Positions 6,280 through 44,656 of a stretch of DNA of 44,656 nt are shown piece by piece. Under the pieces are notes generated by a model. The model saw only the letters and a program-made list of their open reading frames with translations. It was not told the origin of the DNA and did not search any database. This DNA comes from Planctomycetota bacterium (lineage in GTDB: Bacteria; Planctomycetota; Phycisphaerae; Sedimentisphaerales; Anaerohalosphaeraceae). Position 1 is the stretch's first letter. Every line of letters begins with the position of its first letter. Location of the stretch: positions 1 to 44,656 of the forward strand of contig JAKPDO010000007.1 in the NCBI GenBank assembly GCA_029552545.1, given 5' to 3'. A program made the position numbers and the translations under genes.

Positions 6280-6812
6280 TGGAGACGAACAAATCAGCCG
6301 GCTCCGAACCGTGGGAAGAAGTTTTTATGCCCCTGTTCGAAGAGCGGCAGCGTTTTGGAATTCTGCTGCAGGTGCCCCTATGGGCAGGAATTGCCGTTTT
6401 TGGAGGGGTCATTCTCTTCCTGCAGTTCAAGGGGGCCCTGTCAGGAGCTTTAAGCGGGCTCCTGTGGCTTTGCTGGGCATTAATGGCCGCAGTGGATGGG
6501 CTCCTTGCTTCGGGGGGAATGCTCACCCGCGTAAGAAAGGAGGGAATTGAGGTTGTATGCCTGCCGCTGACGTTATTGCGAAAGCGAATCGCCTGGGAGG
6601 AGATTGAGCGGCTGTATGCACGCACCTATTCGCCGATTTCCGAATACGGCGGCTGGGGGATTCGATATGGGCAAGCCGGCACGGCGTATAACATCCGCGG
6701 AAATCAGGGAATCCAGCTGGAACTGAAAAACGGCAAAAGGATTCTCATCGGCACGCAGCAGCCGCAGAAATTTCTGGAAGCCGTCCGCTCCGCCGCCCCG
6801 GGAAAAACCTGA
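6279..6812 (+). CDS. Two-TM protein with bacterial PH-like C-terminal domain
   Basis: A 177-aa protein starting at an ATG that overlaps the GH127 stop (TAATG) and using GGAGG just upstream. Residues of about 27-50 and 55-80 are two membrane helices (VPLWAGIAVFGGVILFL; SGLLWLCWALMAAVDGLL). The remainder resembles a small beta-rich PH-like sensor domain: KEGIEVVCLPL, RKRIAWEEIERLYAR, a GGWGIRYG turn and KNGKRILIGTQQP. Such proteins are common and uncharacterised. Coupling to a GH127 enzyme looks like neighbourhood rather than shared function. A paralogous design (zinc ribbon, two TM, PH-like) occurs at 22925-23578. Confidence 0.7.
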   Translation: METNKSAGSEPWEEVFMPLFEERQRFGILLQVPLWAGIAVFGGVILFLQFKGALSGALSGLLWLCWALMAAVDGLLASGGMLTRVRKEGIEVVCLPLTLLRKRIAWEEIERLYARTYSPISEYGGWGIRYGQAGTAYNIRGNQGIQLELKNGKRILIGTQQPQKFLEAVRSAAPGKT

Positions 6813-6827
6813 CGGCTCTCTTACGAC

Positions 6828-6869
6828 AGTCATCAGTTATCAGTTATCAGTCATCAGTTGTCAGTGATT
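6828..6869. repeat. Six tandem 7-bp repeats (AGTYATC)
   Basis: Units AGTCATC, AGTTATC, AGTTATC, AGTCATC, AGTTGTC and AGTGATT lie head to tail in the gap after the PH-like gene. The last two units have drifted. No coding frame uses it. It may be a slippage-prone microsatellite. Confidence 0.85.
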
Positions 6870-7029
6870 GGTCAGGAAGCGTAAAGAGCAGCCTGTCGGG
6901 GGTATAGAACGGAAATTTGCTTTTCACTCAAATTTTTGTGCAGGCGGATTTTCACGGGTTATTTTGTTGAGGGGGGCGGCTGGGGCGGGTAGAATGGGTG
7001 GTAAACTCTTCAGAAAGGAGTGTGAGCCG

Positions 7030-7794
7030 ATGGAAAAGAAATACAAACTGGCGGCCTCAGAGATTCAGTCCTTAGTACCCGATTTGGGGTTCGGCTTTGT
7101 TTCGGACAAGATTGCCGTGGACGGACACCGCGTGCAGTGCATGGTGCGGGAAGAACCTGATGAGGAGGCCGACAGCGGCTGGCGGTTTCTGGGAGGCGGA
7201 GAGACCGAGGAATATCTGGACGAACCGGAGCACATTTCGCTGCTGGATATCAATACAATTGCCAATTATGACCCGGAGATTATCCCCTTTCTGATGTATC
7301 CGCCGGGCACGCAGATTGAGCGAAACGCCTCCGGCCGGCTGGAAGTAACCAGCCTGGGCACGGAAGAGCCGGAAATCATCCTGCTGCCGCCGGTGGTCGC
7401 CGGCACGGTGCTGGTGCCGCAGTGCTGGCGGTTTGACATCAGCGGGCGGATGTTTCGGCGGATTGACGGCGGCAGTCTGGTGCTCTGGCGGCCGGGGTTG
7501 ACTATCTGGATGGATGTCTATACCGCCAACAATCAGTCGATTGAAGAGCGGGTCAACGGAATCCTTTCCATCAAGAGTGAAAAAGCGGCCGACCTGCAGC
7601 GGCGCGACGAAGAGGGCATGGTCAAACTGCGGTATTCGCTGACGGAAACCGTGGCCGACAAGGAACTGCACGGCGTCTATCTGTTCGGCTTTACCCCCGA
7701 GGAGGAACTGCATCTGGCGGTGTACTATACCTCGGAGGCGGACCGGAAAGAAATTGAGAAAATCTGGGAGACTCTGGGGGTCGTGAAAACGTAA
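7030..7794 (+). CDS. DUF2185 (Imm33-like) domain protein
   Basis: A 254-aa cytoplasmic protein. The N-terminal 100 residues match the DUF2185/immunity-protein type: CMVREEPDEEADSGWRFLGG, EYLDEPEHISLLDINTIANYDP, IIPFLMYPPGTQIER. That family is frequent among predicted immunity proteins of polymorphic toxin systems but is also widespread as an orphan. Residues 120-254 form a second alpha/beta region (VPQCWRFDISGRMFRR, LTIWMDVYTAN, GVYLFGFTPEEELHLAVYY) that I do not recognise. ATG 7030 has AAAGGAG 9 nt upstream; an upstream extension in frame is not supported. No toxin gene lies beside it, so a true immunity role is uncertain. Confidence 0.8.
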   Translation: MEKKYKLAASEIQSLVPDLGFGFVSDKIAVDGHRVQCMVREEPDEEADSGWRFLGGGETEEYLDEPEHISLLDINTIANYDPEIIPFLMYPPGTQIERNASGRLEVTSLGTEEPEIILLPPVVAGTVLVPQCWRFDISGRMFRRIDGGSLVLWRPGLTIWMDVYTANNQSIEERVNGILSIKSEKAADLQRRDEEGMVKLRYSLTETVADKELHGVYLFGFTPEEELHLAVYYTSEADRKEIEKIWETLGVVKT

Positions 7795-7800
7795 AAAAGA

Positions 7801-7898
7801 AATTTCCCCGCAAAGAGTCAAACCAAGAGGATGGGGCAAAAGAGACGAAATCCGTAAAGACAATCCTTGGTGTTTCTTTGTCCTCCCTGCGGGAAATT
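7801..7898. other. Nested inverted repeat, about 98 nt, upstream of the SLC1 transporter
   Basis: Outer arms AATTTCCC(C)GCA (7801-7812) and TGCGGGAAATT (7888-7898) enclose inner arms ACCAAGAGGAT (7822-7832) and ATCCTTGGT (7863-7871). Further partial pairing (CAAAG/CTTTG) lies between them, giving one long imperfect hairpin that fills most of the gap. There is no T tract after it. It could be a structured leader of the transporter mRNA, or a small MITE-like palindrome. Confidence 0.5.
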
Positions 7899-7932
7899 AA
7901 TTGGAAGATGATAAAAGGGTTTTGAGGAAAGG

Positions 7933-9246
7933 ATGCCTTCGAAATCGATTTTTTCAAGCGGAGTTTTTACCGGGATTTTGCTGGGCTCAGCGGTAATTGG
8001 AGGACTGCTGGGCTGGTTCGGCGGGCCGCGGGCGGAGGTGCTCAAGCCGCTGGGGGATGTGTTTTTGAATCTGCTGTACTGTGCGGCGGTGCCGCTGGTG
8101 TTTTTTTCACTCAGTTCGGCGGCGGCGGGCGCCGGTGAAACAAAACGGCTGGGATGGATGGCCGTCCTGATGCTGGTTGTGTTTGCCGGAACGGGGGTAA
8201 TCGCATCCTGTCTGATGATTGGGGCGGTCAAACTGTTCAATCCGGTCGGAGGACTGACTCTTTCGGCATCGGCCCCGACTGTAAGCGAGTCGGTCCGGCT
8301 GGGGCGGACGCTGGCTGAGATGCTGACGGTTCCCAATTTTTCAAATCTGTTTGAGCGGGAACATATGGCGGCTTTGATTGTGTTTTCGATTCTGACGGGG
8401 CTGGCGGCGCAGGCGGCGGGCACCAAAGGCCGGGCGTTTCGAGCATTCCTGAATTCCGGAGCGGCTGTAATGGGCCGGCTGATTCGCCTGATTATGGCTT
8501 ATGCACCAATTGGGCTGACAGCGTATTTTGCCTATCTGGTCGGGGTGTTCGGGCCTCAGCTGGCGGGCACGTACGGACGGGCGGTGTTGGTCTATTATCC
8601 GCTGGCGTTTTTGTATTTTGCGGTTGGTTTTTCGGTATACGCCTATTGGGCGGGCGGAAGAGAGGGGCTCGGGCGGTTCTGGAAGCACATCTGGCCCGCC
8701 TCGCTGACGGCACTGGGTACGGGCAGCAGTCTGGCGGCTCTGCCGGCCAATCTGGAGGCGGCCGGACGCATCGGCATCCCGGACGACATCCGCCGATTCG
8801 TGCTGCCGCTGGGGGCGACGATTCATATGGACGGCACGTGTCTGGCGGCGATTCTGAAGATTGCGATTTTGTTTGCCCTGTTCGGGCGGGAGTTTTCCGG
8901 GGCAGATGTGCTGGCTGGAGCAGTGGGTGCGGCCCTGCTGGCGGGGATGGTGATGAGCGGCATCCCGAGCGGCGGTTTTCTGGGGGAGATGATTCTTGTA
9001 TCGCTGTATGGGTTCGGACCGGAGGCCCTGCCGGTAATTGCCCTATTGGGTACGCTGGTGGACCCGCCGGCGACGATGGTCAATTCGAGCGGGGATACGG
9101 CGGCGGCGATGCTGATTGCCCGGCTGATGGAAGGCAAAAGCTGGCTGTCCGGAAGACCGCACAAACCGGATTCGCCTGAAGCAGATAAGCAGAACCTTCC
9201 TGAAGGCGCTTTCGAAGAAAAAACAAACGAAACCGCCGACCTGTAA
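7933..9246 (+). CDS. SLC1/DAACS family dicarboxylate or amino acid:cation symporter
   Basis: A 437-aa polytopic membrane protein with the glutamate transporter fold. Recognisable elements are the serine-containing hairpin HP1 (GTGSSLAALPANLEAA), the TM7 metal/substrate motif HMDGT (usually NMDGT), the HP2 motif GIPSGG, and the TM8 region DPPATMVNSSGD. The TM8 arginine that usually contacts acidic side chains is not in its normal DRxRT context, so the substrate may be a neutral amino acid such as Ser/Thr or a different carboxylate. The C-terminal 40 residues are polar. The start is close behind GAGGAAAGG. The gene converges with the DUF89 gene, with 5 bp between the ends. Confidence 0.88.
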   Translation: MPSKSIFSSGVFTGILLGSAVIGGLLGWFGGPRAEVLKPLGDVFLNLLYCAAVPLVFFSLSSAAAGAGETKRLGWMAVLMLVVFAGTGVIASCLMIGAVKLFNPVGGLTLSASAPTVSESVRLGRTLAEMLTVPNFSNLFEREHMAALIVFSILTGLAAQAAGTKGRAFRAFLNSGAAVMGRLIRLIMAYAPIGLTAYFAYLVGVFGPQLAGTYGRAVLVYYPLAFLYFAVGFSVYAYWAGGREGLGRFWKHIWPASLTALGTGSSLAALPANLEAAGRIGIPDDIRRFVLPLGATIHMDGTCLAAILKIAILFALFGREFSGADVLAGAVGAALLAGMVMSGIPSGGFLGEMILVSLYGFGPEALPVIALLGTLVDPPATMVNSSGDTAAAMLIARLMEGKSWLSGRPHKPDSPEADKQNLPEGAFEEKTNETADL

Positions 9247-15016: not shown

Positions 15017-15457
15017 ATGAGGGATACTCTCTTTACAATCGGGTATGAAGGTCGGACTTTAGAGTCATTTCTTGCAACCCTAAAGGAACATTGTGTTGAC
15101 TCGCTGTTCGATGTTCGGGAATTGCCCCTGTCCCGGAAGAAAGGATTTTCCAAGAACGCCCTGGAAGAGTACTTAACTCGAAATGGAATACGGTACTTTC
15201 ATCTGCCGCAACTGGGTAGTTCTCGTGTGCTCAGGGCTCAACTAAAAAAAACTCAGGACTATTTATCCTTTTTTGCAGCTATGGAAAATACTCTGTCCGC
15301 CGCTGAGGAAACGATTGACCTGATTTACCGGCATCTCCACGAACATGTAAGCTGCCTGCTTTGTTTTGAAAAATCGGCGGATTTGTGTCATCGAAGTCTG
15401 GTTGCCAAAAAAATTCAGGAACGAAATCCGAACCGGGTAGGCATCTGCAATTTGTAA
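15017..15457 (+). CDS. DUF488 domain protein
   Basis: A 146-aa protein with the full DUF488 pattern: an N-terminal TIGYEGRTLESF, a DSLFDVRELPLSRKKGFSK segment, IRYFHLPQLG, and the closing motif LLCFEKSADLCHR that carries the conserved cysteine/His-Arg. DUF488 proteins are small and uncharacterised, and are often encoded next to DNA/RNA-related or defence genes. The start is chosen at the family-typical position; the Shine-Dalgarno is weak, and ATG 14984 is an alternative. Base composition is clearly more A+T-rich than the flanking genes. It is followed after 24 bp by its likely partner. Confidence 0.85.
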   Translation: MRDTLFTIGYEGRTLESFLATLKEHCVDSLFDVRELPLSRKKGFSKNALEEYLTRNGIRYFHLPQLGSSRVLRAQLKKTQDYLSFFAAMENTLSAAEETIDLIYRHLHEHVSCLLCFEKSADLCHRSLVAKKIQERNPNRVGICNL

Positions 15458-15481
15458 ACAATCGAAGAAGGAGCTGTTCTG

Positions 15482-16309
15482 ATGGGGCTGCTGAAGCAGA
15501 AGGTGCTGATTACCGTCAAAACTTATCCCGCATTATCGTCCACCTATGCCGAACTGGTGTGTACCGCCGGTCTTACAGAAGACGGCAGATGGATACGCAT
15601 TTATCCGATTCCATTCCGACGATTGAAAGATTATTACCAATTCAGAAAATACACGTGGATTGAACTTCCTTTGGTAAAAAACTGCAAGGACCCTCGCCCT
15701 GAAAGTTATCACCCCGCCAATTTACAGGAGATTCAAGTACTCGAACCTGTCGGAACAACCCATCAATGGCAAAAGAGAAAAGAGATTGTTTTTCGGGCCT
15801 CTATTTATTCCAATATGACCGCCCTCATTGAAAAAGCAAAAAAGAATGTGCTGTCTTTAGCCGTGTTCAAACCATCTAAAATTAAAGATTTTATCTGGAA
15901 GGAAGATGATAGAGAATGGGATGAAGCCAAATTCAGAAAGGCCGTCCAAATTTTTCAGCAAAAACCTCTTTTCACAGAGGAAGAATACAAAGATACTTTT
16001 CGTTTTGCCCCTAAACTTCCTTATAAATTCTTCTACCTTTTCGAGGACGAAGAGGGAAGAGAATCCAAGTTGATGGTGGAAGACTGGGAAGCAGGAGCCC
16101 TTTTCTGGAATTGCCTTAAAAAAGAGCGAGAAGAGCAAGCAGCTCTTCAGAAAGTCAAACAGAAATATCTGGACAGTTTTCAGAAGAACGACTTATACTT
16201 TTTTCTCGGAACAACACGGCAATGGCACCAGATAAGCCCTAACCCTTTTTTGATTGTCGGCGTATTTTATCCGCCCAAAAGTGCGCAATCTGAATCACTC
16301 TTCTCCTGA
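15482..16309 (+). CDS. Uncharacterised DUF488-partner protein
   Basis: A 275-aa soluble protein. It begins KVLITVKTYPALSSTYAELVCTAG, continues DGRWIRIYPIPFRRL and WIELPLVKNCKDPRPESYHP, and ends YFFLGTTRQWHQISPNPFLIVGVFYPP. Beta-rich ends around a charged helical centre could be paired OB-like barrels, and proteins of this type recur beside DUF488 genes. Both statements are from memory and unverified. RBS GAAGGAG lies 8 nt before the ATG, and the 24-bp gap from DUF488 indicates an operon. Codon use is A+T-rich like DUF488 and unlike the neighbours, suggesting joint transfer. No catalytic motif is recognised. Confidence 0.7.
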   Translation: MGLLKQKVLITVKTYPALSSTYAELVCTAGLTEDGRWIRIYPIPFRRLKDYYQFRKYTWIELPLVKNCKDPRPESYHPANLQEIQVLEPVGTTHQWQKRKEIVFRASIYSNMTALIEKAKKNVLSLAVFKPSKIKDFIWKEDDREWDEAKFRKAVQIFQQKPLFTEEEYKDTFRFAPKLPYKFFYLFEDEEGRESKLMVEDWEAGALFWNCLKKEREEQAALQKVKQKYLDSFQKNDLYFFLGTTRQWHQISPNPFLIVGVFYPPKSAQSESLFS

Positions 16310-22627: not shown

Positions 22628-22663
22628 TTGCACGAATGTGAACTTTTGCCGAGGAAACGGGCT

Positions 22664-22912
22664 ATGGAAACCTGCAAATACCTTCAGGGCTGTGCATTTT
22701 TCAACGACCCCTCCGTCCAGCGGTTTCAGACGCTTTTTGACCAGCTGAAGGCCGACTACTGCCACGGGAACTTTGCCGACTGCGCTCGCTATCAGGTCGC
22801 CAGCCGCATCGGGCGGGAACATGTGCCGACGTCGATGCTGCCGACCCAGCTGCAGTGGGCGGAGATGATTCTGCGGCGGCACTCGGAGGAATCCGGCGGT
22901 TCGGGGGCGTAA
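22664..22912 (+). CDS. Four-cysteine small protein, paralogue 2 (82 aa)
   Basis: An 82-aa protein with exactly the spacing of paralogue 1: C4-x5-C10-x22-C33-x6-C40. The sequence runs CKYLQGCAFFND, then ADYCHGNFADCARYQVA, then VPTSMLPTQLQWAEMIL. Outside the cysteines and the CARYQVA and P-x-x-MLPTQ-x2-WA blocks it differs widely from paralogue 1, so the duplication is old and the conserved parts are under selection. RBS GAGGA lies 8 nt before the ATG. It converges on the zinc-ribbon gene with 12 bp between the ends. A metal-binding role is inferred from the cysteines only. Confidence 0.75.
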   Translation: METCKYLQGCAFFNDPSVQRFQTLFDQLKADYCHGNFADCARYQVASRIGREHVPTSMLPTQLQWAEMILRRHSEESGGSGA

Positions 22913-23656: not shown

Positions 23657-24406
23657 TTACTTTGTCAGCGGAAGCTGCGGATGAAACCAGACAAAATAGG
23701 CCGGGCGGGCATTCAGACGCGACAGAACAAATCGGAGGCGTGCAAGGCCCTCCGGCATCTGCCGGCGCCGGCCGTACGGGCCGAGAAACCGTTCCACTGC
23801 TTTTTCCAGCGGCTCTCGGGCGAAAGAAGGCAAAGCGCGGATTTGCGCAGCCGCCTCGGCGGCGTCCGTCCAGAGGTCCTCCGGAATGCCCGCCTGAACC
23901 AGCTGGTCGGCCAGAAGCCGGGCCTGGGGGCGCGGCGGGATGTCTATCTTTCGCATCCCCGCCCGTTCAAAAAAGCGGCCCATCGAGCCCATCACGGACA
24001 CGGTCTCTATAACCGGAACATTTAAAAGAGGCATTGTTTCCCGCACCAGCCGGGCCGCCAGCCCCAACCCGCGAAAACGCGGGTCTATAATAACTCGGCT
24101 GATTCGCCGCACACACTGGTTGAGTCGCTCCAAACGCAGCCGTTTATCCGGAATCGAGAAAAAGTCCCCCGCCGCCTGCCGACGGGACGCACAGTTCAGC
24201 AGCGGCATCGCATAGGTAATAATCCCTATGGGATAAGTAATGAAAGCAGAACCCATTAGGGTTTTATGACAGAGTTTCCACGCCGCCGCATACGGCTGTC
24301 GGCCCAAAGACCGATAATGCATTGCGGACATCTTTCGTACATCATCCGCGGAAGCAGCCGTAATCGAAAAATCTTCCAAAATTCGATTTTTTTCATAATA
24401 ATCCAT
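23657..24406 (-). CDS. GNAT-type acetyltransferase domain protein (COG2401 C-terminal type)
   Basis: A 249-aa protein whose core RVIIDPRFRGLGLAARLVRETMPLLNVPVIETVSVMG, FFERAGMRKIDIP is a GNAT acetyl-CoA-binding motif (R-x-x-G-x-G/A) plus the downstream strand/helix. It matches, as I recall it, the acetyltransferase half of COG2401 proteins, where an ABC ATPase and a GNAT domain are fused. Here the ATPase is a separate gene at 24958-25611 on the same strand, with the C4 small gene 3 inserted between on the other strand. The N-terminal 80 residues (MHYRSLGRQPYAAAWKLCHK) are also typical of that fusion. GGAGG lies 10 nt before the ATG. The acceptor substrate is unknown. Confidence 0.75.
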   Translation of the reverse strand: MDYYEKNRILEDFSITAASADDVRKMSAMHYRSLGRQPYAAAWKLCHKTLMGSAFITYPIGIITYAMPLLNCASRRQAAGDFFSIPDKRLRLERLNQCVRRISRVIIDPRFRGLGLAARLVRETMPLLNVPVIETVSVMGSMGRFFERAGMRKIDIPPRPQARLLADQLVQAGIPEDLWTDAAEAAAQIRALPSFAREPLEKAVERFLGPYGRRRQMPEGLARLRFVLSRLNARPAYFVWFHPQLPLTK

Positions 24407-24498
24407 CTTTTATAGCCCTCCAAAAATATTTGCAGGAATTTTCAGAAAAAATAATCTCATTCTTTCAATCAGACGATAAGAAGATGTACTGACGGCAA

Positions 24499-24518
24499 CA
24501 TAGGTACTATTACCTATG
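24499..24518. promoter_or_regulatory. Perfect 8-bp palindrome between divergent GNAT and C4 small gene 3
   Basis: CATAGGTA (24499-24506), loop CTAT, TACCTATG (24511-24518). It lies 92 bp upstream of the GNAT start and 100 bp upstream of small gene 3, so it is placed to act as an operator for one or both. A TACTAT -10-like word overlaps it. No -35 is convincing. Confidence 0.4.
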
Positions 24519-24617
24519 GCAAAAACAGAATAATTCGGTGAGACCACGTGCCAATAAATGTCGACATCCGCAAAAGAACGGATGAAGGCATCGGGAAAAA
24601 AGAAGGAAGCGACTCAT

Positions 24618-24875
24618 ATGCAAAAAACCTGCACACTAATCGAACAGTGCCAGTTTTTGATTCAGAACGAAGAAAATATGCCCAAGCTGAGAAACCTGTT
24701 CCGGGAACGCTACTGTTTAGGGTCATTTGATCAATGTGCCCGCTATCAAGTCGCCATGGCCCTCGGCATTCGGACTGTACCGGAATATATGCTGCCGACT
24801 CAAAATGAATGGGCCTGTCAAATCATTCAGGAATTCAAATCTGAAAAAGAAGCCCCGATAAGCCAAACCTCCTGA
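24618..24875 (+). CDS. Four-cysteine small protein, paralogue 3 (85 aa)
   Basis: An 85-aa protein with C5-x5-C11-x21-C33-x6-C40. It shares CARYQVA and VPEYMLPTQNEWACQII with the other two copies. The first cysteine pair is shifted by one residue. AAGGAAG lies 8 nt before the ATG; earlier in-frame starts are not supported. Unlike copies 1 and 2 it has no TTGCC-N17-TACAAT promoter, but an 8-bp palindrome sits 100 bp upstream. It interrupts the ABC-ATPase/GNAT pair on the opposite strand and ends at a strong double hairpin. Confidence 0.75.
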   Translation: MQKTCTLIEQCQFLIQNEENMPKLRNLFRERYCLGSFDQCARYQVAMALGIRTVPEYMLPTQNEWACQIIQEFKSEKEAPISQTS

Positions 24876-24915
24876 TTTGTTTTCCGGTCAAGATTTCAGC
24901 CCTCGCCTGCGTATC

Positions 24916-24973
24916 GCCGCCTGGCTGACCTTCGGGTCGTCAGGCGGCATACCTTTTTCAAAAAGGTTTTTTT
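24916..24973 (+). terminator. Double-hairpin terminator, UUCG-capped
   Basis: Arms GCCGCCTG (24916-24923) and CAGGCGGC (24941-24948) enclose GACC-TTCG-GGTC. A second hairpin, ACCTTTTT/AAAAAGGT (24951-24958, 24960-24967), and a T run follow. The T-rich part overlaps the last codons of the converging ABC-ATPase gene, whose KKPF end is encoded by it. The element may stop transcripts from both sides. Confidence 0.75.
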
Positions 24974-25611
24974 AAACGGAAATTCAGCACTTCCACGTGA
25001 GCAGCCGCATCCAGTCGGAGCCAGATATCGGGTGCAAAGTAAGGGGCCAATTCATCCCGTGCAGATGCAGCGAACAGCGTTTGTCGGCGCTGCCGAATGA
25101 GATGCGCCGTCTGGAGAGCCAGCATTGCAGCACCGGGAAGGTCCAGGGCGGTACCGAATTCATCGGCAAACAGCCACGGCCTCCCGGCTAAAACGGCACG
25201 AAGGAGACGATACCGAAACTGCTGGCCGGTGCTCAGATGCGCCGGAGCCCGCAAAAGTGCAAAGACATCTCCTAACCCCACCCGAGACAGAAGACCAACC
25301 GCCTCTTCCAGCGGTCCCCCTACACAATCAATCACACTGCGGTCGGATTCAAGGACAATATCTTCCAGCCAAAGCCGCGACTCGGCAGGCGTCTGCTGAT
25401 AGAATTGACGCAGTAGCAGGGTTTTGCCGATTCCGGACGGGCCTGTGAGCAGACAAATCTGCCCCGCAGCCGCCTCGATAACAATCGGGACCGATTCGGA
25501 ATGCTCCTTCAAATCCAGACGGTCCAACCCAAAGCATCGCATCAGTTCCTCTGTCCGCGGACTCCGTCGAGCGAATTGCGGAGCTTTTGTTGTTCCCGTC
25601 AGCCGCATCAT
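24958..25611 (-). CDS. ABC-type ATPase, stand-alone relative of COG2401
   Basis: A 217-aa soluble ATPase. Walker A GPSGIGKT (57-64), signature LSTGQ (125-129) and Walker B with catalytic acid WLFADE (145-150) are complete. The stretches VIDCVG, EEAVGLLSRVGLGDVFALLRAPAHLSTGQQFRYRLLRAVL and FADEFGTALD are those of the COG2401 ATPase half rather than of transport ABC proteins, and no membrane partner is nearby. It overlaps the HTH gene by 4 bp (ATGA), so the two are translationally coupled. The GNAT half lies 552 bp further on the same strand. The likely role is regulatory or nucleic-acid-linked, but this is not established. Confidence 0.8.
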   Translation of the reverse strand: MMRLTGTTKAPQFARRSPRTEELMRCFGLDRLDLKEHSESVPIVIEAAAGQICLLTGPSGIGKTLLLRQFYQQTPAESRLWLEDIVLESDRSVIDCVGGPLEEAVGLLSRVGLGDVFALLRAPAHLSTGQQFRYRLLRAVLAGRPWLFADEFGTALDLPGAAMLALQTAHLIRQRRQTLFAASARDELAPYFAPDIWLRLDAAAHVEVLNFRLKKPF

Positions 25612-26090
25612 CGCCGCCCTTCCGCTGCAGCAGTCAAACTGAAATTGCTGAAGACCTTTTGCCGGTCAATGAAAGCCGTCATTGTCTCCAGATGGCGGTT
25701 CAGGGCATAAAGAGAAATGCGATGGAACCGCGCCAGCCAACGGCGGCTTTTCTTCCGGACAAAATAGTGACGGGCGATACTCATCTGCAGCGGGGTCAAC
25801 TCGCTGCGGCATCGCAGACAAATCTGATACTCCGGGGAAAAAAGACCCTCCACGAGCGAGCGAATCCGCCTGGCCACCGTGGAAGGATTTTGTCCGAGGA
25901 CGGCGGCAATTTTACGGATGGACATCCCCTGCTCATAGACCATTTCCAGCAGGAGCCGTTCGGGTTTGTCAAGCCACTCGAGCCGCCGGCAGATTTGTTC
26001 GGCCGCATCCCGAACAGCTTCCCTGTTCCCCCGAAACCCGACCGGCAAATCGGCCCAATTCTGCAAAGCTCCCGCTCGTAAGCAGCCCAT
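25608..26090 (-). CDS. Sigma-70 region 4-like HTH protein
   Basis: A 160-aa protein. Residues of about 45-95 form a sigma-region-4/LuxR-like helix-turn-helix: KPERLLLEMVYEQGMSIRKIAAVLGQNPSTVARRIRSLVEGL. A Cys pair (CLRC) and a second helical segment with RRWLARFHRISLYALNRHLE follow. No sigma region 2 is present, so it is a small DNA-binding regulator rather than a full sigma factor. The ATG at 26090 has AAAGGAG 5 nt upstream; a TTG at 26114 is less likely. It is first in the operon with the ABC ATPase and has a good promoter at 26140-26167. Confidence 0.7.
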   Translation of the reverse strand: MGCLRAGALQNWADLPVGFRGNREAVRDAAEQICRRLEWLDKPERLLLEMVYEQGMSIRKIAAVLGQNPSTVARRIRSLVEGLFSPEYQICLRCRSELTPLQMSIARHYFVRKKSRRWLARFHRISLYALNRHLETMTAFIDRQKVFSNFSLTAAAEGRR

Positions 26091-26139
26091 TTGTTCTCCT
26101 TTCTGCCGCCTCAAATCCTCAACTTTTTACACATCGGAT

Positions 26140-38408: not shown

Positions 38409-38993
38409 TTATTGTGCGGGGGTCTTCAGTTCGGCCACCAGCCGGCGTGTGGAAGGACTTTGGGCGGACTGGGCCTGCTTGAACGACGGGGCTGCATCCG
38501 GATAAAGGGTCTTGAAGAGCTCGTTGTTGCGGACGATTTCCTTGAGGGCATCGGATTTTTCCCGCGCCTGCCGGAAAAAGGCGGCGGCCTTCAGTCCCCA
38601 CGCCCCGCCCAGCAGCCCCGCCAACGCCAGGCCCAAATCCAGCAGACCATCCGCCATCGACCACGGTTTCAGCTCGGCGGCGGAGCTGTCGGCTTGCGCC
38701 CGGACGGCCGCGGGCCCTGCGGCAGCCAGAATCTCCTGCGCCGTCAGCACAGACCCCATTTCCTTCGGCAGGCCGTAATCGGCTGCAAAGGCACAGCTCT
38801 GCTGACAGGACAAAGCCGTCAGGTCCTGCAGCAGAGCAGAGGTCTGTTCCGAGACGGCCTGTTCGGCGGCCAGCTGGGCCGTCCGCAGGTGAAGCCAGGC
38901 GTTTTGTTTTTGGGCCTGCGTAGCCGGACGGCGGAACCCCTCACAGCCGCACAACAAAACCAACAGAATGAAAAGCCCACTGTACTTGTTCAT
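38409..38993 (-). CDS. Putative lipoprotein of the capsid cassette
   Basis: A 194-aa protein with a short signal peptide and lipobox (LLVLLCG-C). A helical Gln/Ala-rich region (HLRTAQLAAEQAVSEQTSALLQ) is followed by a second hydrophobic segment (LLDLGLALAGLLGGAWGL), then a charged helix. The combination of lipid anchor and internal membrane helix, last in the cassette, resembles spanin- or lysis-type accessory proteins, but there is no sequence match that I recognise. AAGGAGG lies 6 nt before the ATG. It converges with the GDYXXLXY gene. Confidence 0.6.
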   Translation of the reverse strand: MNKYSGLFILLVLLCGCEGFRRPATQAQKQNAWLHLRTAQLAAEQAVSEQTSALLQDLTALSCQQSCAFAADYGLPKEMGSVLTAQEILAAAGPAAVRAQADSSAAELKPWSMADGLLDLGLALAGLLGGAWGLKAAAFFRQAREKSDALKEIVRNNELFKTLYPDAAPSFKQAQSAQSPSTRRLVAELKTPAQ

Positions 38994-39066
38994 GTTTGCC
39001 TCCTTTTTTTCTTGATTTTCCCTGTCTTTTTTTCTATTCTGTTAAACAGATTCAAAGGATTCATCG

Positions 39067-39267
39067 ATGAGAACCGGAACACTGATTCTTTTAACGGTGC
39101 TGTTTGCCCTCGTCGGCATTGCCCTGATTGGAGGGGGAATCGGGTATCTGATTTGGGATGCCAAAAAGCAGAAGAAGGCGGCCCAGCGAAAAGCCAGGTT
39201 CCAATCGCCCGCCGGTTTTGCAGCTCCTTCCCAGCCGACCCAGGGACACGGCCCCGCCTCAAAATGA
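39067..39267 (+). CDS. 66-aa single-pass membrane protein
   Basis: It reads MRTGTLILLTVLFALVGIALIGGGIGYLIWDA, a Lys/Arg-rich stop-transfer stretch, then a Pro/Ser/Gln tail. AAGGATTC precedes the ATG. It lies on the plus strand inside an otherwise minus-strand cassette and overlaps the end of the holin-like gene by 9 bp tail to tail. Function unknown; it may be spurious, but the TM plus basic flank is realistic. Confidence 0.45.
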   Translation: MRTGTLILLTVLFALVGIALIGGGIGYLIWDAKKQKKAAQRKARFQSPAGFAAPSQPTQGHGPASK

Positions 39268-39516
39268 AGGGGATGACTTTGAGGCCTCGACGGCCCGCAG
39301 GCGGTATTCCTGCGAAAGGGTCTTTTCCTGCAGGGCCTCGAGCCGGCCTGTAAACCGCTCCTGATTGTTCAGCAGCAGTTTGACATCATAGGCCACGCGG
39401 TCCAGCTGCCGCTGGAGATTGACCCAGGTGCCGACAATCAGCCCCGCCAGCGTCAGGAGCTGAATCAGGACGGACAGATTGATTTTTCGATCCAGGTGCC
39501 AGTGCTGTGTTTCCAT
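39259..39516 (-). CDS. Phage-type small membrane protein (holin-like) with coiled coil
   Basis: An 85-aa protein, METQHWHLDRKINLSVLIQLLTLAGLIVGTWV, then LQRQLDRVAYDVKLLLNNQERFTGRLEALQEKT. The start x-HWHLDRKI followed by one helix and a coiled coil is common in phage-encoded membrane proteins positioned near lysis or head genes. It may be a holin or a capsid-linked membrane tether. AGGAAGG precedes ATG 39516. It lies 22 bp downstream of the preceding gene in the cassette. Confidence 0.65.
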   Translation of the reverse strand: METQHWHLDRKINLSVLIQLLTLAGLIVGTWVNLQRQLDRVAYDVKLLLNNQERFTGRLEALQEKTLSQEYRLRAVEASKSSPSF

Positions 39517-39538
39517 CGGTGCATTCCTTCCTGACTGA

Positions 39539-40201
39539 TTATTTTCGGGACATTTTCGGGGACAGAGGTGCCAGCGTTTTTTCGACAATCGTGCCGTCTT
39601 CCGAAAGAAACCGCAAAAGCGTTCGGCGTCGGATCTGCTCGGCGGCCTGCTCATAATGCTGCTGCTTGCTTCGATAGAGCGCCTCGGTCTCTTTGTTCTG
39701 AATCAGCGAGGCAAAGACCATCGCCAGAACCATCCGAACGGACAGGATGCGCAAAGGTTCTGTGCTGAGCAAATCCTCGAGTCGAAAGGCCGCATCGGGC
39801 CGGTCGGGAGCAATCTGAAGGGCCTCCATCAGCAGACGAGCGGCTTCGGCGGACTGAGCATCGAAGGTGCCGATGCGGTAAAACAGCGAGGTGCCGGTCC
39901 CAACAGGAATCGGCTCGCTTTCCGGATCGGCCCGTAAGACCGAAAGGGTCAGCTGCGAGGCACTATCCACACGAACAATCTCGTAAATCCCGTCGAGATT
40001 GCCGACGCCGTCCGACAGATAAATCAGATGCCCCGCACGCACTTGTTTGGCGGGGAAATTTTCGCCAGTTGCCAGGAACACGGTGCCGGAGACCTGCCCG
40101 TTCTGGCCGCGGGCGAGCGTCTGGCCGGCAAACGACGTGCCCTTGAAAATCATCGGTTCATAGCAAAGTAAGTCTGCATCGGTGGAGAAGGCAATTTTCA
40201 T
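39539..40201 (-). CDS. Capsid-cassette protein of unknown function (220 aa)
   Basis: The N-terminal 115 residues are beta-rich (GTSFAGQTLARGQNGQVSGTVFLAT, HLIYLSDGVGNLDGIYEIVRVDS, GTSLFYRIGTF). The C-terminal half is helical (AEAARLLMEALQIAP, EDLLSTEPLRILSVRMVLAMVFASLIQNKE). Position directly after the major capsid gene suggests a head-decoration, stopper or connector role, but no family is recognised. A 14-bp terminator-like hairpin separates it from the capsid gene. Confidence 0.6.
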   Translation of the reverse strand: MKIAFSTDADLLCYEPMIFKGTSFAGQTLARGQNGQVSGTVFLATGENFPAKQVRAGHLIYLSDGVGNLDGIYEIVRVDSASQLTLSVLRADPESEPIPVGTGTSLFYRIGTFDAQSAEAARLLMEALQIAPDRPDAAFRLEDLLSTEPLRILSVRMVLAMVFASLIQNKETEALYRSKQQHYEQAAEQIRRRTLLRFLSEDGTIVEKTLAPLSPKMSRK

Positions 40202-40256
40202 AAGACTGCTCCATCTTTCTTCTTTTCGGATTTCGAAATCAGGATTTCAGAAAAGA

Positions 40257-40312
40257 GGCGGATTCTGCGGACCTCCTGCTGCCGTTCGGGGTGCCCTGCC
40301 GCAGAACCCGCC
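40257..40312 (-). terminator. 14-bp hairpin directly after the major capsid gene
   Basis: GGCGGATTCTGCGG (40257-40270) and CCGCAGAACCCGCC (40299-40312), one G-U, 28-nt loop. On the minus strand it is followed by TCTTTTC. It is placed to reduce expression of downstream cassette genes relative to capsid. Confidence 0.65.
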
Positions 40313-40318
40313 CGATTT

Positions 40319-41473
40319 TTACTGACAGGTCAGCCCGCGAATCAGACCGTGGGCGGCCTCGTTCTTCAGTTCGAGGGTGTACTCGCCGATGAGCTGGCCG
40401 CATTCATAATCGCCGCGGCTGGCCAGCGGTTTGTAATGGAAACTCCGTCCGGCCAGAGGCAAAACGCTGATGCGGCTGGAATCCAGCAGCAGAACGGCAT
40501 CCTGGGGTACCCATCGGGTCGTCACAATCCGGCACAGGCCGAAATCGCTCTCATAGAAACTCACCTGATCGCGGTAGGCGGTATCCGCCGGCCCGAAGGA
40601 GCGCAGCCCCGTCAGAAAGCCGTTGATTCGGCGCTTCTGAAAGCCGTTGACGACAATCAAATCAACGGTTGAGGAACTGCTTTCCCAGATTTTGCGCAGA
40701 ACATAATTGATTTTCGGTTCATCCAGGTCATTGCCCTGCGGAAAGCCCTGCGTACCGACGGAATAGACGTGGGTTTGGAGGTGCTGAATGATGCCGCGCA
40801 GGGTCCGGCGGACGGTTTGGCTGCCCTGCGGCGAGGAGATGAGCTGACCGCCGTTGATGACGGTGTTTTCGAGGTCGCGCAGCAGTTCCCGGAGCCGCAT
40901 CTGCTTTTGATAATCCATCTCATCGGCCAGGCCGATGGGACTGGCGGCCAGGTCCGTGCCGCTGACCTCGACGGACTGGGTAAAAATCTGCGTCCAGTTG
41001 CTCTGACGCTGCCGGCAGGTAAAACGGGCCTGGGGACGTTCATCCCCTTCGAGGGCGGCATTGCCGAGAATATTCACCGTCTGCCCGTTTGCCAGAGCCG
41101 AGCGCGTCGTGCCGGCATATCCGCGGATAACAGTGAGCGTATTGCCGGACACCTGCGTAACGAGCATCAGTTCCTGTTTGCCTTCAACCTGAATCTGATC
41201 GCCCGCTCGAAACCGCCCGCCGTCGCTCACATCAAACTGCGTTTCGTTCACTGGGTCCAACAGCGACGAATCGCTGATGGAATCTTTGTTGGGCAGCAAG
41301 GCATCCTCGAGCCACTCGTGGCGGGTGCTGGAGGCGCTGCGGGACGGGTCGCCGAGGGCGTCCAGCAGCGGCGTTTCATAGGGGGAAATGATACCAACCA
41401 AATCCGATACATCCTCCGCCAATTCAGGCAGAGCGGGGCCGGCGCTGTAGGTTGCTTTTCCGGTAAACGGCAT
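40319..41473 (-). CDS. Phage major capsid protein (DUF5309/SU10-like)
   Basis: A 384-aa protein. It starts MPFTGKATYSAGPALPELAEDVSDLVGIISPYETPLLDALG and has HEWLEDAL, a beta insertion (VSGNTLTVIRGYAGTT), FTQSVEVSGT, a long helix (ADEMDYQKQMRLRELLRDLENTVING), a DLIVVNGFQKRRINGF segment and an end with YECGQLIGEYTLELKNE. This is the layout of DUF5309/SU10-type HK97-fold major capsid proteins. No N-terminal protease-cleaved scaffold region is present. AAGGAGTTTG precedes ATG 41473. It is preceded by a coiled-coil scaffold candidate and the portal gene. Confidence 0.85.
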   Translation of the reverse strand: MPFTGKATYSAGPALPELAEDVSDLVGIISPYETPLLDALGDPSRSASSTRHEWLEDALLPNKDSISDSSLLDPVNETQFDVSDGGRFRAGDQIQVEGKQELMLVTQVSGNTLTVIRGYAGTTRSALANGQTVNILGNAALEGDERPQARFTCRQRQSNWTQIFTQSVEVSGTDLAASPIGLADEMDYQKQMRLRELLRDLENTVINGGQLISSPQGSQTVRRTLRGIIQHLQTHVYSVGTQGFPQGNDLDEPKINYVLRKIWESSSSTVDLIVVNGFQKRRINGFLTGLRSFGPADTAYRDQVSFYESDFGLCRIVTTRWVPQDAVLLLDSSRISVLPLAGRSFHYKPLASRGDYECGQLIGEYTLELKNEAAHGLIRGLTCQ

Positions 41474-41499
41474 AATCAAACTCCTTTCTTTGAATCAAT

Positions 41500-41520
41500 G
41501 AATTTCGAATCTCGAAATTC
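41500..41520. repeat. Palindrome GAATTTCGA-atc-TCGAAATTC before the capsid gene
   Basis: Perfect 9-bp arms with a 3-nt centre, in the gap between scaffold-like and capsid genes. A related perfect palindrome, GATTTCGAAATC, lies after the capsid gene at 40229-40240. Confidence 0.6.
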
Positions 41521-41568
41521 GAAACCAAAACGATTTATTCGTGACTTCATACGGCTGATTTCAGCATT

Positions 41569-42066
41569 TCAGGTGAATTGTCTCCGGATGCGCAGATACT
41601 CCTGCACATCGTTGAGCCGTCCGGTGCGTTCGGCCCTGCCGGCGGCCTGCTGAAGGGCGGCTGTGCGGTCGGGCAGGACGCGCTGTCCGGCGGAACGTTT
41701 CGGTCGTGCCGCATTGTCCGCCTCAAACAGCCAGCTTTTTTCACGCCGGAGCCGCTCCAGCAGAGTCGGCACATCGGCTTTGTCATTTTCTGCCAGCTGC
41801 TGACGAATCAGCAGACAGACGGTCTCGCCGTCGATTGCACCGGCGGCCCGGGCGGCCTGAACGAGCTGCTGCTCCGTCTGAATCCGGTCCAGCGTTTTGC
41901 GGAGAGTCTGATTCTCTGCATCCAGCCGGTTGCATTCGGCCTTGATTTGAGCCAGTTCCTTTTCGGCGGCCTGGGCCTGCCGGCGAATCAGGACGGCCTC
42001 CGGTATCGCTTCCGCACCGGAGGGGGTTGTCTGTTCCTGTCGGGGTTCATCGTTTGTGTGTGTCAT
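41569..42066 (-). CDS. Scaffold-like coiled-coil protein
   Basis: A 165-aa hydrophilic protein with a long N-terminal coiled coil (AQAAEKELAQIKAECNRLDAENQTLRKTLDR), then IDGETVCLLIRQQLAEN, VPTLLERLRREKSWLF and a basic C-terminus (LNDVQEYLRIRRQF). Position between portal and major capsid, length and an acidic/Gln-rich coiled coil with basic tail are what scaffolding proteins of tailed phages look like. Assignment rests on context. GAAAGGAG precedes the ATG at 42066. Confidence 0.65.
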   Translation of the reverse strand: MTHTNDEPRQEQTTPSGAEAIPEAVLIRRQAQAAEKELAQIKAECNRLDAENQTLRKTLDRIQTEQQLVQAARAAGAIDGETVCLLIRQQLAENDKADVPTLLERLRREKSWLFEADNAARPKRSAGQRVLPDRTAALQQAAGRAERTGRLNDVQEYLRIRRQFT

Positions 42067-42115
42067 AAACTCGCTCCTTTCCGATCAGGATTTCCTTGTT
42101 TTGTCTGCTGCGAAA

Positions 42116-43684
42116 TTATTCCGCCGTCGGCTCGAAGTCCGTCGGTTCGTATCCCAATTCTTTAAGGATGTCAGCTGCGGGCACGCCGAGGTCTTTTTTG
42201 AGCTGGGCTTCTTTGAGCTGTTCGGCGGGCTCTTCGGGCAGCGGATTGGGAAAGCGCACATCCAGCTGCCGCTCTTCGGGCGAGGTCGGAAAGACGCCGG
42301 CACGGTCGAAGATATCCAGAATGATTTCGGCCATCCGCCGAAGCCCCTGCCCGTAGGTGTACTGCTTGCGGCTGTTGCGGGTGAGCATCCCCATAAAGGT
42401 CATCTTCAGGGCCACGCCGGAGGTCAGATGGCCGATTTTGTTTTTGAGCACACCGGCCACGACGGGGGTTACGCCGCTGATTTTGTCCATCGCATCGCGG
42501 ATGTCGAGGATGTGGAGGTTTTCGCTGGGGCAGTTGTCGTCGCCGCCGAATTCCTGAATGGAGGCGTTCTCGTTGTCCGTACACCACATTCGGCCGGGCG
42601 AGACGGGTTTTTCGCCGACGCCCTCGATGCCCTTGGCCAGATACATCCGAAAGGCCTGCATCGTAAGCCGATTGGCCCGGTCGGACAGGCGTGTGTTCAG
42701 TTCATTCTGCAGGCCGATGAGCTGCTCAACGTCGCTGATGCCCTCGTAGGCATAGGGCTGTGAAAGATTCTGAATGTGCACGACAGGGATGTAGCCGAGC
42801 GGATTAGGGCCTTCGGCGACGCACTGAAAATCTTCATAGCGCTGGAAGCAGCGAGGGCCGATGATTTCCGTGACGGCGGTCTTGCGGCGGCCGGCAGGAA
42901 TCGAACGCCTTCGGAAAAACCGCTCCAGAAGCGCCGGCGGCTGCTCCGGTTCGTTTCGCTCCTGAAGAAAATGCTGAATGTAATAACGGATAGTTCGGCA
43001 GTCGTCTTCTTCCAGGACCGGCAGGGCTCGGGGGGCTTCGACCAGGTCCAGGGCAATCTCGGAAGCGAAGGTGCGGATGCGCGGAAGGGATACGGATGCA
43101 TCGGGAGTCTGAACGGAACGGCCGGGGGTGGCGGCCTGAAGACGTGTGTTCAGCCGAGCGCCGGGACGAATGATGCAGTCGACAAACCCATAGACCGCCC
43201 CGAGCACCGCCAGGTCCTGGAAGAATGCAGGGCCCCCGTTGGCCTCGAACACAGCTTCAAGAAGCGTCTGAATGGCTCTGCGACGAGAAGCATTGGGGGC
43301 CCTGCTGACGAATGAAACGCCTTTGCCGAAGAGAAAATCCACCATCGCACTGATGCGCCAGGCGATGTCATTTTCAATCACAACCTCCTTACGGCGGATA
43401 TCGCGAACGACCTTGCCGGCGTCGATGCCGTCGGGAGTATCATAGAGCCGTCCGGTAATTCGCGGAGGCAAGCCCATTTCCTGCGCCTGAATGTAGGGAC
43501 GGGCGGATTCGGCACAGCGGCCGTCGGCGTCTTCAAACGAAACCGGACCGATGAAACGGTTCTGATAATATTCCCACAGGCGATGAAAGCGGGCAAACCA
43601 AGTCGGCCAGTGGAATTGAATCAGCCAGTCGAGAAAGGACTCCTTTAGTGAAGAATCCTGAAAAATCCTTAAGTCAAACGCCAT
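42116..43684 (-). CDS. Phage portal protein
   Basis: A 522-aa portal candidate. Markers are RPYIQAQEMGLPPRITG, DIAWRISAMVDFLFGKGVSF, the conserved segment IPVVHIQNLSQPYAYEGISDVEQLIGLQNELNTRLSDRANRLTMQAF and a C-terminal LTSGVALKMTFMGMLTRNSRKQYTYGQGLRRMAEIILD, all typical of SPP1-Gp6-like portals. An acidic end with EEPAEQLKEAQ follows. The ATG at 43684 has GGAGG 6 nt upstream. It is the first gene of the cassette. A terminase, which normally precedes the portal, is absent; the next gene is divergent cheW. Confidence 0.88.
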   Translation of the reverse strand: MAFDLRIFQDSSLKESFLDWLIQFHWPTWFARFHRLWEYYQNRFIGPVSFEDADGRCAESARPYIQAQEMGLPPRITGRLYDTPDGIDAGKVVRDIRRKEVVIENDIAWRISAMVDFLFGKGVSFVSRAPNASRRRAIQTLLEAVFEANGGPAFFQDLAVLGAVYGFVDCIIRPGARLNTRLQAATPGRSVQTPDASVSLPRIRTFASEIALDLVEAPRALPVLEEDDCRTIRYYIQHFLQERNEPEQPPALLERFFRRRSIPAGRRKTAVTEIIGPRCFQRYEDFQCVAEGPNPLGYIPVVHIQNLSQPYAYEGISDVEQLIGLQNELNTRLSDRANRLTMQAFRMYLAKGIEGVGEKPVSPGRMWCTDNENASIQEFGGDDNCPSENLHILDIRDAMDKISGVTPVVAGVLKNKIGHLTSGVALKMTFMGMLTRNSRKQYTYGQGLRRMAEIILDIFDRAGVFPTSPEERQLDVRFPNPLPEEPAEQLKEAQLKKDLGVPAADILKELGYEPTDFEPTAE

Positions 43685-44500: not shown

Positions 44501-44527
44501 TTCCCTTTTTTTCTGAGGAGTCTGCGA

Positions 44528-44656
44528 ATGGTTAAGAACATGAAACTGTCCACGAAACTGTTTTTGGGATTCGGCTGTCTGGTTGTGATTACCGCCCTGC
44601 TGGGGCTGATCAGCTGGCGGGGAATGGCCAGGGTCAAGGTCCTCTCTGACCTGACC
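44528..44656 (+). CDS. Methyl-accepting chemotaxis protein (5' part only)
   Basis: The first 43 codons are visible. MVKNMKLSTKLFLGFGCLVVITALLGLISW is the characteristic start of a membrane-bound MCP (KLSTKLxLGFG then a first TM helix), continuing to the right edge. GAGGAG lies 7-12 nt before the ATG. It follows cheW after 27 bp. Confidence 0.85.
   Translation, partial: MVKNMKLSTKLFLGFGCLVVITALLGLISWRGMARVKVLSDLT

Follow-up and report, generated by a model that had tools for sequence, protein, structure and literature searches.

A head gene cassette of Phycisphaerae as part of a phage-derived, predicted DNA-packaging system with a likely role as a gene transfer agent

Genes for a phage portal and capsid that stand among ordinary bacterial genes raise the question of what a bacterium keeps them for. 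Such genes are found in the window analysed here, which is the entire 44,656-nucleotide contig JAKPDO010000007.1 (C43) of a Planctomycetota genome of the family Anaerohalosphaeraceae (G000; 3.09 Mb in 58 contigs, 99.97% complete): a six-gene head cassette, with all genes on the minus strand, occupies positions 38409-43684. A first-pass annotation of this DNA had read the cassette as a domesticated capsid system, resembling either a gene transfer agent (GTA) or a protein compartment, rather than a fresh prophage. In our judgement the cassette probably encodes the heads of a predicted DNA-packaging system of the class Phycisphaerae, which derives from a phage, is likely ancient and likely serves as a GTA; the GTA-like option is favoured by class-wide spread, rpoB-like trees, low dN/dS and distant phage relatives. 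The genes of the cassette are as follows.

42116..43684, minus strand: portal protein, 522 amino acids (PF05133, E 4e-13; phrog_64, E 8e-19)
41569..42066, minus strand: scaffold-like coiled coil, 165 amino acids (PF06810, E 5e-4, below the curated cut-off)
40319..41479, minus strand: major capsid protein (MCP) of the SU10/DUF5309 type (PF17236 SU10_MCP, E 3e-81; phrog_1328)
39539..40201, minus strand: 220-amino-acid head-to-tail adaptor or neck protein, by predicted fold
39259..39516, minus strand: one-helix membrane protein with a coiled coil, 85 amino acids, spanin/holin-like
38409..38993, minus strand: lipoprotein, 194 amino acids, with a lipobox-like motif

The portal and MCP matches are strong, and the head cassette named in the first-pass annotation is indeed real. 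Its scaffold-like coiled coil fared less well, the PF06810 match being weak, although the family is present in 71 of the 81 clustered cassette loci over which neighbour families were counted (80 named capsid loci were retained from 84). Structural relatives of the MCP are 9ny2, 9in6 and the SU10 head protein 7z45, and structure prediction of the 220-residue protein, previously an unknown head protein, suggested a neck/adaptor fold. A hydrophobic segment of 19 residues was found in 42/42 members of the membrane-protein family, for a relative of which the PHROG lysis matches were weak (E 0.02 and 0.09); a lipobox-like motif occurs in 31 of 35 members of the lipoprotein family, itself present in 34/81 clustered loci. 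Translation probably begins at the ATG at 41473 in the MCP gene and at that at 39516 in the membrane-protein gene, which gives the 85 residues listed. The first-pass annotation had also described the flanks and base composition correctly: the cassette is flanked by GDYXXLXY/DUF2157 genes and, at its other end, by cheW, and its GC content (bins of 0.52-0.59) does not leave the range of the remaining window. Its proposed terminator of the cassette found no backing, since nine terminator-like sites were counted against 8.3 expected in shuffles. The gene order of the cassette is the same in named relatives, and its recurrence is therefore not a matter of chance.

The absence of a terminase, on which the earlier argument for domestication partly rested, is true of this contig only. 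Elsewhere in the genome, a large terminase gene that is complete lies on contig C23 (G000:C23:221697-223193), divergent from dnaA, and contig C23 ends 8.7 kb beyond it. The divergent chemotaxis operon that had been taken as the boundary on the terminase side is in fact cut by the contig end, inside the following gene.

44510..44656, plus strand: first 49 codons of a chemoreceptor gene, interrupted by the contig end (tblastn of the receptor of congener G030)

Since residues 1-49 of the G030 receptor match the end of C43 and residues 474-665 the end of C23, the assembly most likely broke inside this chemoreceptor gene, and the missing-terminase argument was thus an artefact of where the contig ended. 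In three congeners the terminase and the head cassette are on one contig, with 10.4, 9.9 and 14.4 kb from terminase to portal, and chemotaxis genes lie in the interval. By this synteny, the terminase of G000 would stand some 10-14 kb upstream of its portal, beyond the chemotaxis genes at which the contig broke. Among the 39 genomes of the family, the general terminase profile phrog_2 matched in 36, including prophage-type genes and weak matches, and a specific protein search found the conserved terminase gene in 28. Residues K92, T93, D179, E180, D329, D384 and D477 are invariant in 17/17 aligned terminases; we take K92/T93 to be Walker A, D179/E180 Walker B and the three remaining aspartates the nuclease site. 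The other Walker A positions vary among the 17. In the window's genus the terminase gene lies beside or near dnaA, and the terminase stretches compared from other genera showed no dnaA.

MCP and terminase genes co-occur across the class, of which 397 genomes were sampled (thresholds E<=0.001 for the MCP and E<=1e-30 for the terminase). The MCP was found in 172 of them, a few being fragments, and the terminase in 195; 162 genomes had both, 10 the MCP only, 33 the terminase only and 192 neither, which corresponds to an odds ratio of 94 (Fisher p 2e-63, a statistic that ignores relatedness). A single match per genome was the usual state (MCP 153/172, terminase 172/195), several of the others being split or fragmentary. 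In the family the MCP occurs in 25 of the 39 genomes at 69% identity or more and in one more at 28%. The phylum-wide sample contained it in 53/392 genomes, 24 of them outside the class; there the terminase profile, at E<=1e-20, matched 18 of 22 MCP-bearing genomes (the two weakest were excluded) and none of 8 MCP-less ones, the matches lying mostly in the nuclease part of a more divergent terminase. By title, 79 of the 80 named MCP loci are planctomycete and one is from Vicinamibacteraceae; a relative with 85% identity is named Anaerohalosphaeraceae.

Both genes were on one contig in 41 of the 117 genomes in which both positions were available. The distances between them run from 1.1 kb (G118) to 3.1 Mb (G379, a partial terminase match) with a median of 32 kb; two are below 5 kb, 31 between 5 and 100 kb, and eight at least 100 kb (among the large ones, G014 166 kb, G096 0.69 Mb, G056 0.98 Mb and G334 1.1 Mb). 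MCP and terminase are separated, yet loosely linked more often than scattered. It was also observed that about 11 kb separate two parts of the MCP gene in two genomes, each from a different family; an insertion inside the gene, decay and a removable element are candidate readings.

G003:C103:3492-4463 and 15339-15536: split MCP gene
G195:C1:1409068-1409259 and 1420820-1421812: split MCP gene

Inheritance was examined with FastTree on 30 genomes, selected for a full-length MCP and terminase. Identity to the genes of the window's genome, in 29 comparisons each, was 57-85% for the MCP, 38-70% for the terminase and 65-91% for rpoB. Of 27 splits, the MCP tree had 16 and the terminase tree 17 in common with rpoB, where shuffled labels gave a mean of 0.2 and a maximum of 4; distance correlations in this set were 0.70-0.77, and the MCP tree recovered all seven families with at least two members. 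In three congener pairs, dN/dS was 0.06-0.12 for the MCP, 0.08-0.16 for the portal, 0.10-0.17 for the terminase, 0.14-0.19 for the neck protein and 0.11-0.26 for the lipoprotein, against 0.02-0.07 for phosphomannomutase, 0.03-0.10 for DnaA and 0.23-0.28 for the DUF2157 gene used for comparison. Thus MCP, portal and terminase are under purifying selection in the congeners, and the relaxed selection that would have spoken against domestication is not seen in portal and capsid genes; the trees suggest that the system is likely inherited mostly vertically.

A third cluster of the system, overlooked in the first-pass annotation, lies in the same window at 23657-26114.

25608..26114, minus strand: sigma-70-region-4-like helix-turn-helix regulator, 168 amino acids, homologue of a protein of the terminase-side module
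24958..25611, minus strand: ABC-type ATPase, 217 amino acids (BLASTP 36% over 212 residues against a G014 protein, E 1e-44)
23657..24406, minus strand: GNAT-like protein, 249 amino acids (own-genome profile match, E 1.6e-70; BLASTP 41% over 236 residues)

The regulator is 39% identical over 99 residues to a protein of the G014 module (BLASTP E 3e-21), with a TIGR02937 match (E 1e-7) below the cut-off. In related genera, relatives of all three genes adjoin the small and large terminase genes. Among 37 terminase loci, some of them truncated by contig ends, a small-terminase-like gene was present in 15, a ParB-like gene in 12, a sigma-like helix-turn-helix gene in 15, and the ABC-type ATPase and/or GNAT protein (which fell into one cluster) in 18; Pfam and PHROG matches were taken from examples. 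Profile searches of the 39 family genomes found the GNAT gene in 29 (in G000 the match is at window positions 23666-24385) and a small terminase, at E<=0.01, in 20. PMC7824862 predicts, for a phage GNAT protein that is linked to an ABC ATPase, that a DNA base receives an acyl modification of uncharacterised kind; by analogy, the pair in the window may chemically modify DNA before packaging. Two small open reading frames at 22628-22912 and 24558-24875, both on the plus strand, flank the GNAT gene and resemble each other by eye. In G026, a genome of the window's genus that is 98% complete, the GNAT gene is present, and the MCP and the specific terminase were not found there; this state is a probable loss of the two genes.

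Phage relatives of these proteins are distant. The best-ranked matches in 50,697 phage records were 32% identical for the MCP, 24% for the terminase and 26% for the GNAT protein, and of the 253 terminase relatives on viral contigs, none of the 80 listed exceeded 35% identity, in matches that covered part of the protein. In IMG/VR, a first MCP scan gave 13 loci at 27-29% identity and a profile scan ten, seven of them at 32-36%. The locus L301 (71%) is a full cassette between bacterial-type genes. The MCPs of L296 (62%; 5970-7124) and L297 (61%; 7023-8183) lie alone among phage replication, recombination or terminase genes, with no neighbouring portal or neck gene within the stretch examined. 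In the tree, the L297 MCP falls inside family f16 (support 0.998) and that of L296 inside the order (0.966); because both nest in bacterial clades, capture of the gene by phages is likelier than the reverse, and these two lone MCPs were probably taken from bacteria. As annotated, Rhizobium phage RHph_N1_10 carries ParB, ABC ATPase, GNAT-like, terminase, portal and MCP genes in a single run; therefore the ancestral element was, by analogy, probably one operon that was later divided.

Overall, the evidence supports an old, mostly vertically inherited, split and selected system for predicted DNA packaging. It may be envisaged that some signal would cause a few cells to assemble the MCP on scaffold and portal. 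Headful packaging by the terminase would load host DNA into these heads, possibly after chemical modification of the DNA by the ABC-ATPase/GNAT pair; the neck protein would then seal them, and lysis of the envelope would be aided by the membrane protein and the lipoprotein. Those relatives that have a hub and fibre module would inject the DNA, and the window's genus would release heads that lack this hub. The definition of GTAs, as set out in the introduction of PMC9662315, comprises structural proteins derived from caudoviricetes, a fully endogenised genome that is often multi-locus, mostly vertical inheritance with diversification alongside the hosts, packaging mostly of random host DNA, own genes that are not fully packageable, and delivery to other cells. 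Three of these six were tested and recognised here: the caudoviricete-derived structural proteins (PF17236, PF05133, phrog_2 and the predicted neck and hub folds), the endogenisation at several loci (the window has the head genes and the ATPase/GNAT pair, C23 has the terminase, and other genomes show a multi-locus layout as well) and the mostly vertical inheritance (16 and 17 of 27 rpoB splits, with some discordance of the terminase tree). In addition, the system's own genes are likely not fully packageable where its parts are at least 100 kb apart (8/41 genomes).

A number of observations weigh against a GTA. Packaging of host DNA and transfer between cells are inferred, the system being known here from its genes. 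The tree genomes were a selected set; the MCP and terminase trees agree in only 13/27 splits, and the latter fails to recover families f1 and f4. The association statistic takes no account of relatedness, many class genomes lack the MCP (33 with the terminase and 192 with neither), and full scattering of the two genes is not the rule. Higher dN/dS was found for the scaffold (0.23-0.41) and the membrane protein (0.21-0.48) than for the other parts. In the window's genome, no hub-type tail gene or homologue was found, no small terminase was detected by profile search at E<=0.01, and neither an endolysin nor a tail tube nor a head protease could be recognised, no dedicated search having been made for endolysins. 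An XRE repressor lies on the other strand in 10 of the 37 terminase loci, and a Peptidase S24 domain was found in the single one that was scanned, both prophage-like traits; the lone MCPs among phage genes (L296, L297) belong here as well.

The tail deserves separate mention. The missing tail of the first-pass annotation is borne out in part: the search elsewhere in the window's genome returned the terminase and no hub-type tail gene, although a hub-type tail protein with its neighbour is present in 24 of 25 long cassettes of relatives. By comparison of sequences, the window's genus appears to do without a tail-hub module that many relatives keep. This bears on the best-surviving alternative, which is unlikely in our view, namely a domesticated head-and-motor system with another function, such as protected DNA packaging or export, or a weapon or decoy against phages. 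It would fit a genus in which no device for adsorption was recognised and purifying selection nevertheless maintains portal, MCP and terminase, and lone MCPs of this type in two phage contigs might be expected if the protein mattered in conflict; the hub of the long cassettes, however, argues for delivery into cells in a large part of the lineage.

The next alternative, a prophage lineage that repeatedly infects and decays, with the separated head and terminase genes as its remnants, is quite improbable. All parts are phage-like, some terminase loci have a phage-type repressor, some genomes have prophage-type terminases, and head and terminase genes often lie within tens of kilobases; remnants of this kind are nonetheless hard to reconcile with the single MCP match seen in 153 of 172 genomes, trees that mostly agree with rpoB, dN/dS well below 1, the host-type genes that separate terminase and portal in three congeners, and at least 72% identity to the MCP in all 120 database proteins listed, compared with 32% in the best-ranked phage record. 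Finally, an encapsulin-like compartment made of the capsid protein, the other option of the first-pass annotation, would agree with the MCP being more conserved than the terminase, and is hardly credible when portal, scaffold-like and neck-like proteins are retained beside it and a terminase with intact motifs accompanies it in 162 of 172 genomes, all of these being parts that belong to DNA-filled heads.

Three known designs were considered and rejected. An RcGTA-like MCP was one, the MCP matching PF17236 and giving no PF05065 match at E<=1. An intact prophage, with head and terminase genes side by side and with integration and replication genes, was another; in three congeners other genes occupy the 10-14 kb that separate terminase and portal, and no search was aimed specifically at an integrase. 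An encapsulin is an HK97-fold shell without portal and terminase; here the portal is adjacent and the terminase co-occurs.

Returning to the GTA reading, demonstrated GTAs are, to our knowledge, few and mostly alphaproteobacterial. By gene layout, the system resembles the Brachyspira GTA (BhGTA), for which PMC9662315 describes a terminase gene in single copy that is not part of the structural cluster as delineated; BhGTA is a system of spirochetes, however, whereas the present one extends through a whole class and, with a more divergent terminase, into other families of its phylum. The Faecalibacterium FpGTA is similar by description, being podovirus-like with two operons that lie, in one genome, about 125 kb from each other, and differs in phylum and in that packaging was inferred from sequenced protected DNA (PMC12946183, in the parts concerned) and here from genes. 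Since these two GTAs are divided as well, the split layout is not unique. The RcGTA family (Rhodogtaviriformidae) is also caudoviricete-derived and mostly vertical according to the passages of PMC9662315, but putative GTAs of that family have an MCP of the PF05065 group (PMC8346489, in the portion relevant here) and not of PF17236. Phage SU10 and N4-like podoviruses share the MCP family PF17236 and an adaptor-like fold; they are free phages, and the best-ranked phage record is 32% identical in the MCP. RHph_N1_10 has the same gene order in its annotation, but as a contiguous run in a 116-kb phage, in contrast to the two to three chromosomal places seen here.

No account of a system of this kind in Phycisphaerae was found in the literature searched, within which several features appear to be new, namely the phylum of the host, the family of the capsid protein, the depth across a whole class, the ATPase/GNAT pair as partner and the form without a hub. 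A bolder proposal, which we regard as doubtful and offer tentatively, is a planctomycete GTA that arose independently, predates the class and is common to several branches of its phylum; its genes would be divided among two or three chromosomal places, its own ATPase/acetyltransferase would mark the packaged DNA, and in the window's genus it would be reduced to a tailless form whose DNA-filled heads are released with no tail hub. If the GTA reading is true, the system would be among the oldest and widest GTAs, present in about four in ten sampled class genomes, and a built-in route of gene exchange for bacteria that are hardly cultured. The MCP, the terminase and the ATPase/GNAT pair are named genes for direct testing, the natural hub-bearing and hub-less versions allow the purpose of the tail to be asked, and the capture of a capsid gene by phages suggests that there is conflict or exchange between them and the domesticated particles.

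Two minor observations concern the cassette. In 10 of the 81 clustered loci a radical SAM gene, presumably spore-photoproduct-lyase-like, lies on the opposite strand within the long cassette (e.g., L035:18777-19883, L042:17434-18531 and L051:19376-20545). In the window, a 66-residue membrane-protein-like open reading frame (39067-39267, plus strand) lies antisense between the membrane-protein and lipoprotein genes, and its counterparts in congeners are similar at 46-91%.

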